A stretch of DNA of 64,000 nucleotides from Syntrophobacterales bacterium (lineage in GTDB: Bacteria > Desulfobacterota > Syntrophobacteria > Syntrophobacterales > Thermodesulforhabdaceae), in assembly GCA_026417655.1 (NCBI GenBank), contig JAOACS010000021.1, forward strand, positions 124,001 through 188,000. Reading direction: 5' to 3'. A program made the position numbers and the translations under genes. The notes beneath the pieces are model-generated. The model worked only from the letters and a program-made list of their open reading frames with translations. It did no database searches and was not told the origin of the DNA. Of the stretch, positions 52,613 through 60,508 are shown in pieces. The first letter of the stretch is position 1, and every line of letters begins with the position of its first letter.

Positions 52613-53203
52613 ATGAACGTGTTGTCGACTACGCCCCCACTTTCTCCTGGTACCTATAAGGGAATTGACATTAAAGCGCTAGAGGGAAAAAACGTCAAAA
52701 ATGATAAGAACCCCCTATCCAAAGAAGATATTAATTCTACAGAAAATGCCACTTCCCTTAAAAACAGTGAGGTAACCAATAAAAACCTTACCGAAGAAGA
52801 ACGACGTCAAGTTGAAAAGCTTAAACAAAGGGACCAGGAAGTCCGTACTCACGAAAGAGCTCATATTGCTGCCGGTGGTAAATATGTAAGAGGTGGGGCG
52901 AGTTTTCAATACGAGCGAGGTCCCGATGGGAGACTCTATGCCATAGGTGGAGAGGTTTCAATCGATGTCTCTCCCGTGCCCAATAATCCGTCTGCTACCA
53001 TAAAAAAGATGGAAACGGTTATAAGAGCTGCCCTTGCTCCATCCCAACCCTCTGGTCAGGATTATCAGGTCGCAGCAAGAGCCCAAATGGAGATTTCAAA
53101 GGCGCAGATGGAACTTCTACATAAACGGGGAAAGGAAACCTATTCGAGTTTTGGGAGAAGAGCCCCCTCTTCAGGAGGTTCAGATATTTCTCTTATCGCA
53201 TAA
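52613..53203 (+). CDS. SprA-related putative metalloprotease domain protein
   Basis: The 196-residue protein has a Ser- and Asn-rich N-terminal half and a conserved domain (about 70-175). It contains a zinc-protease-like HERAH motif (near 82), VRGGASFQYERGPDGRLYAIGGEVSID and ARAQMEISKAQMELL. This matches the SprA-related family (putative metalloprotease catalytic domain), whose activity is unproven. ATG 52613 has GAGGT eight bases upstream. Its 3' end overlaps the P1 peptidase by 11 bases. Confidence 0.85.
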   Translation: MNVLSTTPPLSPGTYKGIDIKALEGKNVKNDKNPLSKEDINSTENATSLKNSEVTNKNLTEEERRQVEKLKQRDQEVRTHERAHIAAGGKYVRGGASFQYERGPDGRLYAIGGEVSIDVSPVPNNPSATIKKMETVIRAALAPSQPSGQDYQVAARAQMEISKAQMELLHKRGKETYSSFGRRAPSSGGSDISLIA

Positions 53204-54188
53204 TGTCACTGTAGGAAGGGATACCTGGAAAACCCTTCGCCTTTTTTACAGCCCTAATTATGGCATGTGCTACAGCCTCAGCGGCGAGAGCCCCAATCAC
53301 CGATGTCTCTACTCCGTCTAGTTCGCCACAACTTACTGAAAATATCGTATCTCCATCATATTGAGTATGAGCTGGCACAATGGTTCTCGCAAGACCATCA
53401 TGGGCCATTTGGGCAACCTTCGTAAGCTGATTCTTATTCAGCCTGGCATTTGTTGCTACCAGACCAATAACGGTATTTTGTCCCTGAGGAAACCCCCTAA
53501 GTCGGGGTATTTCCCGAAGCACTCGATCGGCATAGGCCAGTTCAAGACTATCACTACTCTTTCTACATCCCGCTATAAACCGACCTTCCCAGGGATCCCA
53601 AATGTCTCCAAAGGCATTAACTACCATTAAAGCTCCAACCATAAGGCCATAGCCTGTTTTAATGCAGAAACTTCCCAGTCCACCCTTCATACCCTGAGCT
53701 ACACCATAGAGCTTTCCAACAGTAGCTCCCAACCCAGCCCCCACATTACCTTCTTGACATGGGGAGTCAGTGGCCTTTATGCAGGCTTCAAAGCCCAGTT
53801 GAGCGTCTGGATAAACCCCCGATCTATTAACGCCGAGATCGAAAATTATAGCACCAGCAACTATAGGAACTTTCCCATAACCCGTCTCAAAACCTAAGCC
53901 GTAACTAGAGAGGAAACGGCGCACACCATCTCCTACAGAAAGGCCAAAGGCACTTCCTCCACTGAAAAATATGCCGTGCACTCGATCCACAAGGTTTATT
54001 GGAGAAAGAGAGTCGGTTCCACAGGTTCCTGGGGCACCACCTCTTATGTCAACGCCTGCCGGAGCCCCCTCAGGAGGAAGAAGTACCACCGTGCACCCAG
54101 AAGGTCTTTCGTCCCTAAGATGAGCATGTCCTACACGGATACCTAAGATAGCGGTAATTGTGTCGTTTGTTCCATCCACTGCTTTCAT
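53193..54188 (-). CDS. P1-family peptidase (DmpA-like)
   Basis: The 331-residue protein resembles P1/DmpA self-processing aminopeptidases (N-terminal nucleophile class). It has GIRVGHAHL near 20, the GGAPGTCGTDSLSP block near 45-60, NVGAGLGATVG near 148 and VATNARLNKNQLTKVA near 250. The exact processing serine cannot be assigned with confidence. It is the last gene of the ABC-CNB-HD cluster, six bases after the HD gene. Confidence 0.88.
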   Translation of the reverse strand: MKAVDGTNDTITAILGIRVGHAHLRDERPSGCTVVLLPPEGAPAGVDIRGGAPGTCGTDSLSPINLVDRVHGIFFSGGSAFGLSVGDGVRRFLSSYGLGFETGYGKVPIVAGAIIFDLGVNRSGVYPDAQLGFEACIKATDSPCQEGNVGAGLGATVGKLYGVAQGMKGGLGSFCIKTGYGLMVGALMVVNAFGDIWDPWEGRFIAGCRKSSDSLELAYADRVLREIPRLRGFPQGQNTVIGLVATNARLNKNQLTKVAQMAHDGLARTIVPAHTQYDGDTIFSVSCGELDGVETSVIGALAAEAVAHAIIRAVKKAKGFPGIPSYSDIMR

Positions 54189-54194
54189 ATCACC

Positions 54195-54965
54195 CTATGC
54201 CAGACAACTTTCTCCATAATGTCTTAAGAGATAGCGGTAAATATCTTTACCTATGGCTATGCCATTTTCTATTATTTCTGGACCAAATTGTCGTCCTGTA
54301 GGGGTGCGAAAGGTCTGAGCTATTTTTCTAATGCCATCAATCCCCCAATGGAAACGCTCAATAAGATCCCTTGGAGAAAGGTTCTGATGATCTACCATAC
54401 GCCATATCGTATAGGTAAAGTTATCAGCCCCCCATCTAAACTTGTCAGCATCATACAAACAATCGCTTATGAGTTGACCTATCGGGTTAAGAGATGGAAC
54501 AGGACGTCTAAAGGCTTCATGATTTCTTATAGCTCGACATATAAAACCTATTTCTTCTTCACTAAAGGGGAAGAGTCTTAAAATCTTTGCCGCTTCCCGA
54601 GCCCCTACCTCGGCATGATTTGGCTCACAGCGAGCAATATCATGTAGTATACCAGCAGCAAGACCAAGGATAAGAATTCTATGCTTATGGACACCGATAT
54701 TTCCTATCTGGGTCAATTCAATATCCAGGAGGGCTGCGCAGTCCCAGGCTACACGACTACTATGATAGATACCATGCCCTACCTTTTCACAGAGAAGAAG
54801 ACGCTCTTCAACGGCCTCACGAAGGAGAATTATAATGGGATTTGTAAAGTAGAGATGTTTCGATCTAGACACTTCCACGTGAAACCGAGCATAAAAGTCT
54901 GGTTTTTGATGTCTGGAAGCAAATTCTCGGGATTTTCTGGCCAAATCTTCAATAAAGCAATTCAC
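54195..54965 (-). CDS. HD-domain phosphohydrolase
   Basis: This 256-residue HD-family protein has metal ligands in HGIYHSSRVAWD (His near 63), ILHDIARCEPNH (HD near 109-110) and IRNHEAF near 144, which are typical of HD phosphohydrolases. The start is GTG 54965 with AAGGAG upstream, inside the 3' end of the cyclic-nucleotide-binding gene. It may hydrolyse a nucleotide, but the substrate is unknown. Confidence 0.82.
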   Translation of the reverse strand: MNCFIEDLARKSREFASRHQKPDFYARFHVEVSRSKHLYFTNPIIILLREAVEERLLLCEKVGHGIYHSSRVAWDCAALLDIELTQIGNIGVHKHRILILGLAAGILHDIARCEPNHAEVGAREAAKILRLFPFSEEEIGFICRAIRNHEAFRRPVPSLNPIGQLISDCLYDADKFRWGADNFTYTIWRMVDHQNLSPRDLIERFHWGIDGIRKIAQTFRTPTGRQFGPEIIENGIAIGKDIYRYLLRHYGESCLA

Positions 54966-55467
54966 ACTTCAACTCCTTGGCGTACATTTCTATAAATTGA
55001 TCCTCCATAGCAACTATTCCTTTTACCATAATTTCCAACATTCGCAAAGATATGTCGGGAAATTGGATAACAAAACGTTTGAAAACCTCCCGAGGCACTA
55101 TAAGACACTCGGAGGATTTCACAGATTGAGCAGAAAAGAGCCTTTTAATATCGGCAAGAAGTGCAAGACCTCCAAAAAATTCTCCCTCCTCCAGCTCCTT
55201 AAGGATAAAGGAGCGATCCTCATAATGACGGATCATTCTCACTCTACCGGATTTAAGTATATACCCATTAGAGTCGTATTCTCCCTGCCGAAATATAAAC
55301 TCCCCTTCAAGGTATTTACGACAAGGGCAGAGAGTGGCTAGTATCTTTAATTGATCAATGGGTATCGCCCCAAAGGCTGAAATTTGCCTAAGCAAACTTA
55401 CCTTTTCATCGAGACCACAAAAACATTTTATTGTAATAAGACCTTCAAGATCCCTTGAGGAGATCAT
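54949..55467 (-). CDS. Cyclic nucleotide-binding domain protein without HTH
   Basis: ATG 55467 follows AAAGGA and gives 172 residues. The protein is a Crp-type beta-roll: YLEGEFIFRQGEYDSNGYIL near 54-73, SGRVRMIRHYEDRSFILKELEEGEFFGGLALLAD near 75-108. No helix-turn-helix follows, and the C-terminal 40 residues are helical (LEIMVKGIVAMEDQFIEMYA), so it is likely a sensor without DNA binding. Overlaps the ABC gene by 23 bases and the HD gene by 17. Confidence 0.83.
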   Translation of the reverse strand: MISSRDLEGLITIKCFCGLDEKVSLLRQISAFGAIPIDQLKILATLCPCRKYLEGEFIFRQGEYDSNGYILKSGRVRMIRHYEDRSFILKELEEGEFFGGLALLADIKRLFSAQSVKSSECLIVPREVFKRFVIQFPDISLRMLEIMVKGIVAMEDQFIEMYAKELKCELLY

Positions 55468-57967
55468 AGAAATATCCTTTCTTTTCAACTAATTCATCGT
55501 AGGAACCTGCCTCTACAATTCTTCCCGCCTTCATAACCAAAATGCGGTCGTAGTCACTTACCGTCTCTAAACGGTGGACAACCGATATGATTGTGCACTT
55601 TCCAGCAAGATCCTCCCTTATGAGTTGTTGGACCTTAGCCTGGGATCTATTGTCCAACCCAGAGGTGACCTCGTCTAAAAGCAAGATGGAAGGTTTTTTT
55701 AATAGAACTCTCGCTAAGCATATCTTCTGTTTTTGGCCTCCCGAAAGAAGTCCTCCCTGACTTCCAACGTAATAGTTCAGTCCCTTAAGCAAAATCCGAT
55801 CTCTTACTCCAAATTCCTCTATTGTCTTAATTACAGCTTCTCTTACAATATTTTCAGCTTGAGAGATCTCACTTCTAACGCTTCCAAAGATAATGTTTTG
55901 AAAAACGGTATGCTTCCAACAAAATTGAGCTGGATTTATAAAACACAGGGACCCTCGAAAGGCCTCGCCAATTTCGTTTCTAAAAGCTGAACGGCAACGG
56001 ACAATATAGTCCATAAACGATGAGGGGACGGAAATAATAGGATGAAAAGCAGGGACATAGCGGAAAGCAAGTTTTAGTAAAAGAAGGATCTCTTTTCTAC
56101 TTAGCCTTCTAATATCCCCATCCTTTTCCACAAAACCTTTATAAACTGGAAACTCCTCAATCAAGAGTGGGGTTATCCCCGTAAAGAGATCGTCCTGTAT
56201 ATCTCGATTAAAGATATCTAAAGTCGACTCGACTATAGCCCGCCCCATCATTGCCAAAGGAACTAATAGACCAAGATTATCTAGGACACGGATAATATTC
56301 GGGTGTTTCACGAGGAGTTCCTCTTCCGGTTCTTCCGTGAGGCTAAACCCAAACAATAGGTTAACCGCCAGAGACTGGTGGGAGATAAAGGAGCCTTCAT
56401 CGAAGGGCTCAATAAGGGAGCTAATATCATGATCGATCCTTTCCAGAAAGTGCCTTCTAATGGAAAGAACCAGCTCAGCGAAATCCTTTTCCGATCCATT
56501 AAGTTTTGCATTTAACCCAAATGTTAGAACATCACCGTCAAGTCCCACCCTTTCAATGACCTTCATGAGTTCTTCATGGGTAGGAAGTATTTCGCAAGCC
56601 TTCAAACTACTATCGTAGGAGATCTTTTCGCCGATAGTTTTCGCGGCGTTACAACCATAGAGTATATTCTCAAGAATTGTCCCACTAAATATAAAAGGCG
56701 ATTGAGCTACGTAACCTAAGTTGAGACTTACATCAGCCTTCGTTAACTCTCTCAGCTCCTTCTCATCTATTAGAACATGACCTCCAGTGTAATCGCAAAG
56801 TTGAGCAAGTATCATGATAAGGGTGCTCTTCCCACTTCCTGAAAACCCAACGATCGCTACTCGCTCTTTAGAGTTAATCTTACAAGATACCGAATCTACA
56901 ATCTTTATCGAATGATCCACTGTAAAACTTACACGATCCATCTCGAGGTTGCCGGAGAGGGTGTAAACCTGTCTATCCGTTGGCACTAGTTTGACATTGG
57001 TATCGTAAGAGAAGGTCTCCATAACTTTTTTGTATCGAACCCGGGCATCTTGATAATTCTGGTAGTATTCGATTAATTCCTTCCATGGATCGGAAAGTTT
57101 TTCATAAGCGGAGAGAAAAGCAATAAGGGCTCCAATGTCTAGCCTACCCTGAATGCTTAAATACCCACCCAGGAGAAAAAGGATGAAGGGACCAAGGTTT
57201 TGAAAAAAATTATTCATCCACTTTATAAGGAATTTTACTGCCGCCATACGGTAACGGATTTTGAAAAGAGAATAGGAGAATTTTTCAAACCTTTGCCCTT
57301 CCAGTTCATAGGAAGCATTACAATGAATTTCATGGACACCGGATATAACTTCGCCTAGAAAGTTACTTGCATTTCTAGTAATCTCCATACGCTCTTGGTT
57401 TAATCTATTGAATTTATTCTGAAGAATAGGGACTATAGCAACTTGAAAGGGATAGACACAAAGACTTACCAGGGCTAGAAGGGGATTGAGGTAGAACATG
57501 AATCCAGCGAAGGCGAAAAGACTCAGTATATTTACAAGGGGGGTTGAAATAGCCTCGCCCAGAAATTCACCAATACTTCCGAGCTCGTTTATGATAAAAG
57601 AAATTGTCATGCCAGGCGGGGTCTTTCTAAAAAAGGATAGAGGGAGACGTAACACATGGTTAAAGAGAGCTGTCCTAATTTCATAAACGATTTTCTGTCC
57701 AACAAAGTTTGTTATAATATTTACGACATATTTAAGAAGTCCTGCGGAAATTATTGCTACAATATAAAGAGCACAATAGGTGAAAAGGCTATAAACCGAT
57801 TTCATTGCTATAGCAAGATTTACAATCTTTTTCTGCATTTCAAGAGGAAATACCCTGAGAAATATAGTGACTATCACGAGAATAAGGGCAGTAATCTGGT
57901 GAAGTCTATATCTTGTAAGAATCCAGTAAAACAAAGGAATACGGGTTATATCCTTTCCTGCTTCCAT
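55445..57967 (-). CDS. ABC exporter with split nucleotide-binding domain and long insertion
   Basis: The 840-residue protein starts with six membrane segments (about 30-330), matching ABC exporter half-transporters. Walker A GFSGSGKST lies near 374 and a first Q-loop (YVAQSPFIFSGTILENILYG) near 427. A roughly 240-residue section without known motifs follows. Then comes a second Q-loop-like segment (INPAQFCWKHTVFQNIIFG) near 680, signature LLSGGQKQK near 740, Walker B SILLLDE near 763 and H-loop VVHRLE. The signature is about 57 residues after the second Q-like segment, the normal spacing, but 366 from Walker A. The exported substrate is unknown. Confidence 0.87.
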   Translation of the reverse strand: MEAGKDITRIPLFYWILTRYRLHQITALILVIVTIFLRVFPLEMQKKIVNLAIAMKSVYSLFTYCALYIVAIISAGLLKYVVNIITNFVGQKIVYEIRTALFNHVLRLPLSFFRKTPPGMTISFIINELGSIGEFLGEAISTPLVNILSLFAFAGFMFYLNPLLALVSLCVYPFQVAIVPILQNKFNRLNQERMEITRNASNFLGEVISGVHEIHCNASYELEGQRFEKFSYSLFKIRYRMAAVKFLIKWMNNFFQNLGPFILFLLGGYLSIQGRLDIGALIAFLSAYEKLSDPWKELIEYYQNYQDARVRYKKVMETFSYDTNVKLVPTDRQVYTLSGNLEMDRVSFTVDHSIKIVDSVSCKINSKERVAIVGFSGSGKSTLIMILAQLCDYTGGHVLIDEKELRELTKADVSLNLGYVAQSPFIFSGTILENILYGCNAAKTIGEKISYDSSLKACEILPTHEELMKVIERVGLDGDVLTFGLNAKLNGSEKDFAELVLSIRRHFLERIDHDISSLIEPFDEGSFISHQSLAVNLLFGFSLTEEPEEELLVKHPNIIRVLDNLGLLVPLAMMGRAIVESTLDIFNRDIQDDLFTGITPLLIEEFPVYKGFVEKDGDIRRLSRKEILLLLKLAFRYVPAFHPIISVPSSFMDYIVRCRSAFRNEIGEAFRGSLCFINPAQFCWKHTVFQNIIFGSVRSEISQAENIVREAVIKTIEEFGVRDRILLKGLNYYVGSQGGLLSGGQKQKICLARVLLKKPSILLLDEVTSGLDNRSQAKVQQLIREDLAGKCTIISVVHRLETVSDYDRILVMKAGRIVEAGSYDELVEKKGYFYDLLKGS

Positions 57968-58052: not shown

Positions 58053-58490
58053 ATGCGAGTCACAATACAACGTAAAACAATATTAGAAACTCTTAGGCGC
58101 CTTAAATCTCATCCTACGGCGGAAGAGCTTTATTCTATTATAAAGCCAAGCCTACCTCGCATAAGCCTTGCCACGGTCTATAGAAACTTAGAATTACTTG
58201 CCGAGGAGGGATTAATTAGGAAGATTTTTGTCCAAGGTAGTTCTCAAAAACGCTTCGATGGGAATCCCCATCCCCATTGCCATATCCAGTGCATAAACTG
58301 TGGTAAAGTAGATGATATTACAATTAATCCCATTTTAAACCCTATAAAATTTATAATGGAAACCAAAGGTTTTGAGGTTACTAATTATCATATAGAATTT
58401 AGCGGTCTATGTGCCGATTGCAAAAAACAACCGTCTCAAAAGGAGGAAACAAAAAATGGCAGGAAGAAGTGTAAAGGGAACAAGAACTGA
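58053..58490 (+). CDS. perR: Fur-family peroxide regulator PerR
   Basis: The 145-residue Fur-family repressor has an N-terminal winged helix ([27 protein letters not shown], residues 28-55). Regulatory metal ligands are in [10 protein letters not shown] near 72-81. A structural zinc site is formed by two CxxC motifs, CINC near 84 and CADC near 126. PerR senses peroxide through iron-dependent oxidation of histidines. It directly precedes rubrerythrin, a typical PerR target, and overlaps its start by 35 bases. Start ATG 58053 with AAAGGA upstream. Confidence 0.88.
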
Positions 58491-59037
58491 AAAAAATCTT
58501 CTAACGGCCTTTGCTGGTGAATCTCAAGCTAGAAACCGCTATACTTATTTCGCAGAAAAAGCGAGACAGGAAGGGTATGAACAGATAGCAGCCATCTTTG
58601 AAGAAACGGCTAATCAAGAAAGGGAACACGCAAAGAGACTTTTCGGCTTCCTTGAGGGAGGTGAGGTTCAGATCGAGGGAACCTTTCCTGCTGGAGTTAT
58701 AGGATCAACAAGAGATAATCTCCTTGCCGCTGCGGCAGGTGAGCTTTATGAACATTCTCAGATGTATCCAGAATTTGCCAAGATTGCGGAAGAGGAAGGT
58801 TTTTCAGAGATAGCAGTAGTTTTCAGAAACATAGCCGTTGCGGAGAAATATCATGAAAAGAGATATAGAGATTTTGCCGCCAATATAGATGCTGGGCGAG
58901 TGTTCAAGAGGGAATCCACAGTAACTTGGCGATGTAGAAACTGTGGGTACCTCTATGAAGGAGATAGCGCTCCCGAAAAGTGTCCTGCCTGTGCCTATCC
59001 GAAGGCTTATTTTGAACTCCTTGGCGAAAACTGGTAA
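58456..59037 (+). CDS. rbr: Rubrerythrin
   Basis: Rubrerythrin reduces hydrogen peroxide at a diiron centre in anaerobes. The 193-residue protein has the diiron four-helix region with [28 protein letters not shown] and AEKYHEKRY. The C-terminal rubredoxin-like centre is [10 protein letters not shown] ... CPAC (near 158-177). ATG 58456 follows AAAGGAGG, within the perR end. It forms the start of an oxygen-defence run. Confidence 0.96.
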
Positions 59038-59049
59038 ACTTACTAAACT

Positions 59050-59076
59050 CCGGGCGTTAATATCACAACCGCCCGG
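59050..59076 (+). terminator. GC-rich hairpin between rubrerythrin and rubredoxin
   Basis: CCGGGCG (59050-59056) pairs with CGCCCGG (59070-59076) over a 13-base loop. No U run follows directly, so it may be a partial terminator or an mRNA-processing or stabilising stem that sets the rubrerythrin to rubredoxin ratio. Confidence 0.45.
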
Positions 59077-59103
59077 ACCAACTTAATTTCAAGGAGACCG
59101 TAA

Positions 59104-59295
59104 ATGTCGCAAAAATTATGGCAATGCCAGACTACAAATTGTGGGTATATCTACGATCCAGAAAGAGGTGATAGAAAAGGTAAGATCCCAAAGGGCGTTC
59201 CCTTTGAAGAACTACCAGATGACTGGAAATGTCCCGTCTGTGGAGCATCCAAGAAAATGTTTCGTCCCATAGAGAGTCCATCAGCAGGCCTTTAA
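59104..59295 (+). CDS. Rubredoxin with CX4C first metal loop
   Basis: Rubredoxin passes electrons from NAD(P)H:rubredoxin reductase to oxygen- and peroxide-reducing proteins. Of 63 residues, the second loop CPVCG (near 44) is standard, but the first is CQTTNC (four residues between Cys8 and Cys13) instead of CxxC. Atypical CX4C rubredoxins are known in Desulfovibrio. The usual [13 protein letters not shown] and aromatic core are present. Confidence 0.93.
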
Positions 59296-59311
59296 TGAGG
59301 GAGGAATGGAA

Positions 59312-60508
59312 ATGAAAGCTGTAGAAATCAAGCCAGACATTTATTGGGTTGGGGCTATCGACTGGAAGATTCGCGACTTTCATGGCTATTCGACCTATAA
59401 GGGAACGACCTATAACGCCTTCCTTATAAAGGATGCAAAAGTTACTTTAGTGGACACGGTAAAAGCTCCCTTTTTCAACCAGATGATTCATCATATAAAA
59501 GAGATTGTTGAACCCTATGAAGTGGATTACATGGTTGTTAATCATGTAGAAATGGATCATTCAGGATCCTTCCTTCAGGCTGTAGAAACATTTAAACCCA
59601 AAAAGATCTTCTGCTCAGAAATGGGCAAAAAGGCACTCCTTCAGCATTTTCATAGTATAGATCTCCCCTATGAGGTAGTAAGAACGGGAGACTATGTTAG
59701 CACAGGAAAAAAGACCCTTCATTTCATCGAAACCCGCATGTTACACTGGCCTGACAGCATGTTCACCTATATTCCCGAAGATAAACTCCTGATTTCCAGC
59801 GATGCCTTTGGTCAACACTGGGCAACAAGCGCTCGCTTTGATGATGAAGTCCCCTCGGATGAGCTTATGTACCACGCTGCAAAATACTATGCTAACATAC
59901 TGCTACTATATTCCCCTCTAGTTCAGAAGCTTCTTACTAAGGTAAAGGAACTAAACCTTGACATAGATATGATCGCCCCAGATCATGGTTTGATATGGAG
60001 AAAGAGTCCGGGAAAAATCATCGAGGCCTACGATAGATGGAGTCGTCAAGAAGCGAAAAGGAAAGCTATTGTGGTTTACGACACCATGTGGCACAGCACG
60101 GAAAAGATGGCGAACGCCATTTCCGATGGGCTTATAGACGAAGGGATAGAAACCCTCCCAATGTCTCTAAAAGTCTACCACCGAAGTGATATCATAACGG
60201 AACTTTTAGATTCAAAGGGACTAGCCATTGGGTCACCTACCCTCAACAATGGTCTATTCCCAACAGTGGCCGATATTCTAACCTATATGAAGGGACTTAA
60301 ACCCTTAGGAAAAATCGGTTTCGCCTTCGGTTCCTATGGTTGGAGCGGTGAAGCTGCAGGTATTATATCCCAATATCTTTCTGATATGAAAGTTGAGCAA
60401 ATTATAGATCAACCCTTTAGAATCCAATATGTCCCCGACCATGAAGCTCTCAAAAAATGTTACGAATTAGGACGTAAACTTGGAGAGCGTATAAAGGAAG
60501 TGGTCTAA
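59312..60508 (+). CDS. Flavodiiron protein (rubredoxin:oxygen oxidoreductase)
   Basis: Type A flavoproteins reduce oxygen (or nitric oxide) to water using electrons from rubredoxin. The N-terminal MBL-fold diiron domain holds HVEMDHSG (near 78-85) and a later DAFGQH near 162; the C-terminal flavodoxin domain starts VVYDTMWHSTEKMANAI near 250. ATG 59312 is seven bases after GGGAGG; the ATG at 59306 is too close. Lies ten bases after rubredoxin, its expected donor. 398 residues, normal length. Confidence 0.94.
   Translation: MKAVEIKPDIYWVGAIDWKIRDFHGYSTYKGTTYNAFLIKDAKVTLVDTVKAPFFNQMIHHIKEIVEPYEVDYMVVNHVEMDHSGSFLQAVETFKPKKIFCSEMGKKALLQHFHSIDLPYEVVRTGDYVSTGKKTLHFIETRMLHWPDSMFTYIPEDKLLISSDAFGQHWATSARFDDEVPSDELMYHAAKYYANILLLYSPLVQKLLTKVKELNLDIDMIAPDHGLIWRKSPGKIIEAYDRWSRQEAKRKAIVVYDTMWHSTEKMANAISDGLIDEGIETLPMSLKVYHRSDIITELLDSKGLAIGSPTLNNGLFPTVADILTYMKGLKPLGKIGFAFGSYGWSGEAAGIISQYLSDMKVEQIIDQPFRIQYVPDHEALKKCYELGRKLGERIKEVV

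Follow-up and report, generated by a model that had tools for sequence, protein, structure and literature searches.

The exporter encoded in the window, the stretch of 64,000 nucleotides of Syntrophobacterales DNA analysed here, is a new variant of ABC exporter, its architecture having no earlier description in the literature searched. As judged from its sequence, its ATPase domain is one catalytic core with a Q-loop-exit/helical unit that occurs three times, because profile alignments link the copies to each other and to canonical ATPases. No description of a triplicated-module exporter was found in that literature, from which subscription journals were mostly absent, and SMb20813, by annotation the S. 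meliloti msbA homologue and a putative equivalent of two members of the family described below (L017/L018), is named in a single paper there, merely as an msbA homologue.

The exporter ORF is uninterrupted and encodes 840 aa on the minus strand, from an ATG at 57967 to a stop codon ending at 55445. The PF00664 score of its membrane domain lies above the cutoff and places the protein among ABC exporters of the type IV (ABCB-like) class. The ATPase domain is C-terminal, with a Pfam match that falls in two stretches, and carries the complete set of Walker A, Q-loop (VAQSPF, beginning at residue 420, with the catalytic Gln at 422), LSGGQ signature, Walker B with catalytic Glu, and switch His. The protein would be a dimer driving transport by ATP. 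The main features are located as follows.

55445-57967, minus strand: ABC exporter gene, 840 aa, with the triplicated Q-loop-exit/helical module (ORF and 59-member family).
57008-57910, minus strand: ABC membrane domain, about residues 20-320 (PF00664, E 2e-34 (2.1e-34), residues 46-288; alignment).
56822-56848, minus strand: Walker A GFSGSGKST, residues 374-382 (motif scan; K380 in 47 of 47 Desulfobacterota members).
55859-56647, minus strand: net extra segment, about residues 441-703, ca. 263 aa (spacing versus ordinary exporters).
55733-55747, minus strand: ABC signature LSGGQ, residues 741-745 (alignment, motif scan).
55661-55684, minus strand: Walker B and catalytic Glu LLLDEVTS, residues 762-769, D765/E766 (alignment, motif scan).
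55574-55576, minus strand: switch His 798 (alignment).

The original prediction had described an ATPase domain split by about 260 residues, with a stretched order of motifs and no second Walker A, and all three points were borne out. Walker A (374) and signature (741) are separated by 367 residues, where an ordinary exporter encoded in this genome has 104, a spacing that departs from that of a canonical ATPase domain (about 104 residues) by a net excess of ca. 263. Neither a second Walker A nor a second Walker B left any trace in the alignment or the motif scan. This layout is common to the 59 members of a working family defined after removal of near-copies, with distances of 357 to 403 residues (median 363) versus 86 to 114 in nine control rows, two of which represent the same exporter. 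The family comprises 47 members from Desulfobacterota and 12 from Alphaproteobacteria, the latter drawn from plasmid records only. One further candidate (L016) corresponded to an ordinary exporter pair and was dropped.

A scan of contigs detected seven full-length relatives in Desulfobacterota that are 39-43% identical and that all have the extra segment at the same place. A profile of this segment had matches in 20 of 297 genomes drawn evenly across the phylum and in 36 of 60 nearer relatives. Among plasmid records the segment was detected in 246, the majority from Rhizobium and Sinorhizobium, and a search with the Azospirillum sequence also reached Ruegeria, Sulfitobacter, Tritonibacter and Methylobacterium. 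The hypothesis that a frameshift or an assembly error had joined two genes, against which the original prediction had cautioned, has only the unusual length in its favour. The same architecture, in proteins of 811 to 1075 aa, is found in all 59 non-redundant members, which come from independent assemblies including some single-contig genomes, and a layout conserved across dozens of genomes reflects neither chance nor assembly error; this explanation is ruled out for all practical purposes.

Between Walker A and LSGGQ, the domain is occupied in succession by copy 1, copy 2 with a spacer, and copy 3.

56513-56734, minus strand: copy 1, true Q-loop (Gln 422) and the helices after it, residues about 412-485 (alignment, profile comparison).
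56228-56509, minus strand: copy 2, R504 helix, FDEGSFISHQSLAVNLLFG (no Gln) and helices, residues about 487-580 (alignment, profile comparison).
56048-56227, minus strand: spacer between copies 2 and 3, residues about 581-640, without detectable relatives outside the family.
55763-56047, minus strand: copy 3, R659 helix, INPAQFCWKHTVFQNIIFG (no Gln) and helices up to the signature, residues about 641-735 (alignment, profile comparison).

In the alignment, the Q-loop exit motif is seen three times, as IFSGTILENILYG (426-438), FDEGSFISHQSLAVNLLFG (522-540) and INPAQFCWKHTVFQNIIFG (677-695), with the catalytic Gln retained in copy 1 only. The Q-loop-like segment placed near residue 680 by the original prediction (INPAQFCWKHTVFQNIIFG) bears a likeness to the Q-loop exit alone; the Gln position is not conserved there, and the further copy at 522-540 had been overlooked. 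Copy-to-copy comparisons with hhalign gave E values of 6e-8 (copies 1 and 2), 2e-10 (1 and 3) and 2e-13 (2 and 3), with scores of 42 to 94 versus at most about 20 in column shuffles (100 per pair). Longer units of copy 2 (487-605) and copy 3 (640-757) aligned over 85 columns with an E value of 4e-17, while the copy 1-2 comparison with extended ends was left out because the pieces overlap themselves. Control pieces of the exporter gave E values of 0.06 or worse, with the exception of a match of 18 columns between copy 1 and the spacer (E 0.0015). When compared to canonical ATPases, copies 1 and 3 matched the same region (E 8e-10 and 2e-13, respectively) and copy 2 gave a weak match in register (E 0.02); the closest match of copy 2 is copy 3, and vice versa. 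The repeat Asn residues (434, 536 and 691) and the Arg residues 504 and 659 are invariant in the 59 members, including those in which the ATPase is broken (see below), as is G695 of copy 3.

The extra segment taken alone has no sequence match in Pfam or in the PDB. Its AlphaFold model (pLDDT 79.6) is mostly helical, with a short strand-helix-helix-strand element that recurs at copies 2 and 3, and a Foldseek search of this insert-only model against the PDB gave no match with an E value of 0.001 or better. Foldseek matched the full-length model, whose pLDDT of 66.6 is moderate, to nothing but whole ABC exporters, and these superposed poorly (rmsd above 20 A). The absence of matches for the segment in Pfam, in the PDB and by Foldseek, together with the weak similarity of copy 2 to ordinary ATPases and a spacer resembling nothing, would be in line with an unrelated domain nested inside a single ATPase domain, the likeness of motifs being convergent. 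This is nevertheless improbable given that copy 2 matches both copy 3 and copy 1 at levels that stand out from the shuffled controls. Somewhat more credible, though still unlikely, is the fusion of a pair or trio of ATPase domains whose extra catalytic cores were later lost, leaving copies 2 and 3; all three copies are indeed ATPase-derived, but second Walker motifs are missing altogether and the mutual closeness of copies 2 and 3 is what duplication in place predicts. Fusion and internal duplication differ in the history that they imply, not in the present architecture. Of the two options put forward in the original prediction, a fused and partly deleted pair is the closer one, the extra segment being largely ATPase-derived, but the catalytic core (Walker A, Walker B) was not duplicated and the actual form is an internal duplication of the module. 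As for the other option, a nested insertion, most of the segment is made up of module copies, and ca. 60 residues (roughly 581-640) could be a true insert.

Next to the exporter is a gene for a cyclic-nucleotide-binding fold (CNBD).

54949-55467, minus strand: stand-alone CNBD gene without HTH (PF00027, E 1e-17; partner in 54 of 59 members).

Its translation in the window probably starts from the ATG at 55467, located after AAAGGA, the longest listed ORF beginning at 55488. Across the family, a CNBD lies directly 3' of the exporter on the same strand, or is fused to its C-terminus, in 54 of the 59 members; the partners are 150 to 210 aa long and, in Desulfobacterota, their gene usually overlaps the exporter stop codon. 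Four of the remaining members (L066, L092, L097 and L118) have no adjacent CNBD despite room for a partner gene, and the fifth is located at a contig end. Some records annotate the partner as a Crp/Fnr or transcriptional regulator, which would make it an unrelated gene merely sharing the exporter's operon. That reading is very unlikely: Pfam detected no DNA-binding domain or HTH in the window CNBD or in the other partners tested, the CNBD is fused to the exporter in five members belonging to three lineages (Azospirillum, Ruegeria and Hyphomicrobiales UR115; confirmed by Pfam), and the linkage is conserved between two phyla. The near-universal occurrence of this partner lends support, of an indirect kind, to the regulatory role that the original prediction had suggested for the extra segment.

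In the phosphate-binding cassette of the window CNBD, a Gly replaces the Glu while the Arg is present, so that the residues indicative of cAMP or cGMP binding are incomplete. Among Desulfobacterota CNBDs, 34 of 44 have Gly at this position of the cAMP pocket and 40 of 44 keep the Arg; all 10 alphaproteobacterial CNBDs have kept Glu/Asp and Arg. Most of the Desulfobacterota CNBDs, being devoid of the canonical cNMP-pocket Glu, may act as scaffolds rather than as sensors. The distribution is near-reciprocal, members with an intact ATPase mostly having a Glu-less pocket and those with a dead ATPase having Glu/Asp and Arg; one ATPase-intact exception (L063) has a CNBD with both pocket residues.

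The seven catalytic positions checked are all intact in the 47 Desulfobacterota members, whereas every one of the 12 alphaproteobacterial members examined has broken ATP sites, with loss of the Walker A Lys in 11, of the Q-loop Gln in 12, of the catalytic Glu in 11 and of the switch His in 12; the signature Ser is also changed in the 12. An ATPase-intact alphaproteobacterial member could exist outside the plasmid sample. In the phylogenetic tree, members from Desulfobacterota and Alphaproteobacteria fall on opposite sides of one branch, with long outgroup branches and an unsure placement of two alphaproteobacterial rows (L092 and L097). The latter, from Methylobacterium bullatum plasmid 1 (3570-6122), has the longest branch, a membrane domain that has diverged strongly and no CNBD in its vicinity, yet all three copies are recognisable.

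Broken ATPase residues in every alphaproteobacterial member examined, and the high divergence of L097 and L092, which have no CNBD, might be taken as signs of decaying, functionless genes. However, the frames are open and dN/dS values between related dead members, which are approximate with some dS near saturation, range from 0.04 to 0.19 for the membrane domain and from 0.06 to 0.60 for the ATPase and insert. Since dN/dS is below 1 in every computable region, which indicates purifying selection, these genes are not simply decaying, and such a scenario, also at odds with the invariant repeat Asn residues and with the 246 plasmid records carrying the segment, is regarded as most improbable. In the dead members the membrane domain is as constrained as the ATPase domain or more so, and in several intact pairs the extra segment evolves faster than the remainder of the exporter. 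Retention of membrane domain, module and CNBD after loss of the ATPase suggests that in this branch the module probably works on the membrane domain with no ATP being turned over. A bolder hypothesis, put forward tentatively and with low confidence, is that the dead branch consists of ABC-derived membrane proteins making no use of ATP at all, in which module and CNBD would form a ligand-controlled gate or receptor on the membrane domain.

Another gene follows in the putative operon.

54195-54965, minus strand: HD-domain-like gene (Pfam HD falling slightly short of its cutoff; near 9 members).

In the window (53193-54965 and 58053-60508), the run exporter-CNBD-HD-peptidase S58 is divergent from genes for Fur, rubrerythrin and an FprA-like protein. 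These neighbours recur near other members (S58 at 13 loci, Fur at 10, FprA-like at 10, HD at 9 and rubrerythrin at 8), and this setting may hint at an oxidative-stress context. Of the 47 Desulfobacterota members, 23 have STAS genes nearby and 17 have RsbW-like genes, and an RsbW-like HATPase and STAS partner-switch pair is found up- or downstream of many of these loci (L009-L015, L046-L119). In Rhizobium, the exporter gene adjoins glycosyltransferases, with cyo oxidase genes nearby. In Rhizobium etli CIAT 652 plasmid pA (L121), the two upstream genes are annotated redA and redB (membrane-anchored protein and glycosyltransferase); no publication on either turned up in the literature searched, and they may hint at the exporter cargo. 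The root-colonisation gene pRL110056 (PMC11103875) may be a neighbour of a family member.

The best sequence and fold matches of the window exporter are MsbA/ABCB-type (type IV) half-exporters such as MsbA, Sav1866 and TM287/288, with which it shares the membrane domain, the catalytic motifs and their order, but from which it differs by the helical unit present three times and by the dedicated CNBD partner. The best NCBIfam match is MsbA (TIGR02203) with 307.7 bits, below the cutoff of 602 bits for an MsbA lipid A exporter. Large segments inside an ABC ATPase domain occur in UvrA, Rad50/SMC and ABC-F proteins, but these are not membrane exporters and their insertions are unrelated domains or coiled coils rather than copies of the helical unit. 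HetC and related peptidase exporters also join an ABC exporter to a cyclic-nucleotide-binding fold (PMC10986499), but theirs is an N-terminal CNBD accompanied by a C39 peptidase, neither of which was detected by Pfam on the window exporter; the present family has a triplicated module, lacks a peptidase and carries its CNBD either in a gene of its own on the 3' side or at the C-terminus of the exporter. MlaFEDB, with its STAS subunit MlaB, has a small non-catalytic protein on the ABC ATPase domain (PMC7367683), as proposed here for the CNBD, but belongs to a different transporter class, and STAS genes are merely neighbours of the exporter family. Finally, degenerate catalytic motifs in a functional family are known from heterodimeric exporters, in which one ATP site is degenerate and the other stays canonical (reviewed in PMC7756269); in the alphaproteobacterial members Walker A, Q-loop, catalytic Glu and His were lost together and a canonical half was not identified. 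An anti-phage defence component was also considered and rejected, PADLOC matches being partial and confined to the ATPase domain, with none for the neighbours.

On balance, the reading favoured here, with reasonable though not high confidence, is that of an MsbA-like exporter whose expanded helical subdomain serves as a docking and gating platform for the CNBD subunit. It is weakened by the faster evolution of the extra segment in several intact pairs, by the Glu-less pocket of most Desulfobacterota CNBDs, by the four members that have room for a CNBD gene but none beside the exporter, and by the modest quality of the full-length model. The exporter would be a homodimer of the MsbA/ABCB type, each ATPase domain combining a single catalytic core with a helical subdomain of increased size. 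The CNBD, produced from the next, overlapping gene as a dedicated cytoplasmic subunit or, in some lineages, as the exporter's own C-terminal domain, would dock on this subdomain and shift its position with respect to catalytic core and coupling helices. Such a movement might switch ATP-driven export on or off in response to a putative small ligand or regulator. In the alphaproteobacterial branch, the membrane domain, the triplicated module and usually also the CNBD have persisted despite the loss of the ATPase residues. HetC, which needs its ppGpp-binding CNBD to function (PMC10986499), is a precedent for CNBD control of an ABC exporter, and MlaB, a small STAS protein binding an ABC ATPase, is one for a small-protein partner (PMC7367683); the helical subdomain is the rotating element through which the ATP sites and the membrane domain are coupled (see the discussion in PMC7367683).

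In the family described here, the subdomain that couples ATP turnover to the membrane domain is thus tripled and paired with a sensor-like subunit. To our knowledge, few ways are known in which a partner protein controls an ABC transporter through its helical subdomain. The existence of one branch that kept module and CNBD after loss of the ATPase makes ATP-free gating of an ABC membrane domain directly testable and, if such a gate does exist there, the Desulfobacterota members would display the regulated-pump state ancestral to it. These data also provide a testable role for genes, present on hundreds of plasmids of mainly rhizobial origin, whose annotation goes no further than 'ABC transporter' and 'Crp/Fnr regulator'.
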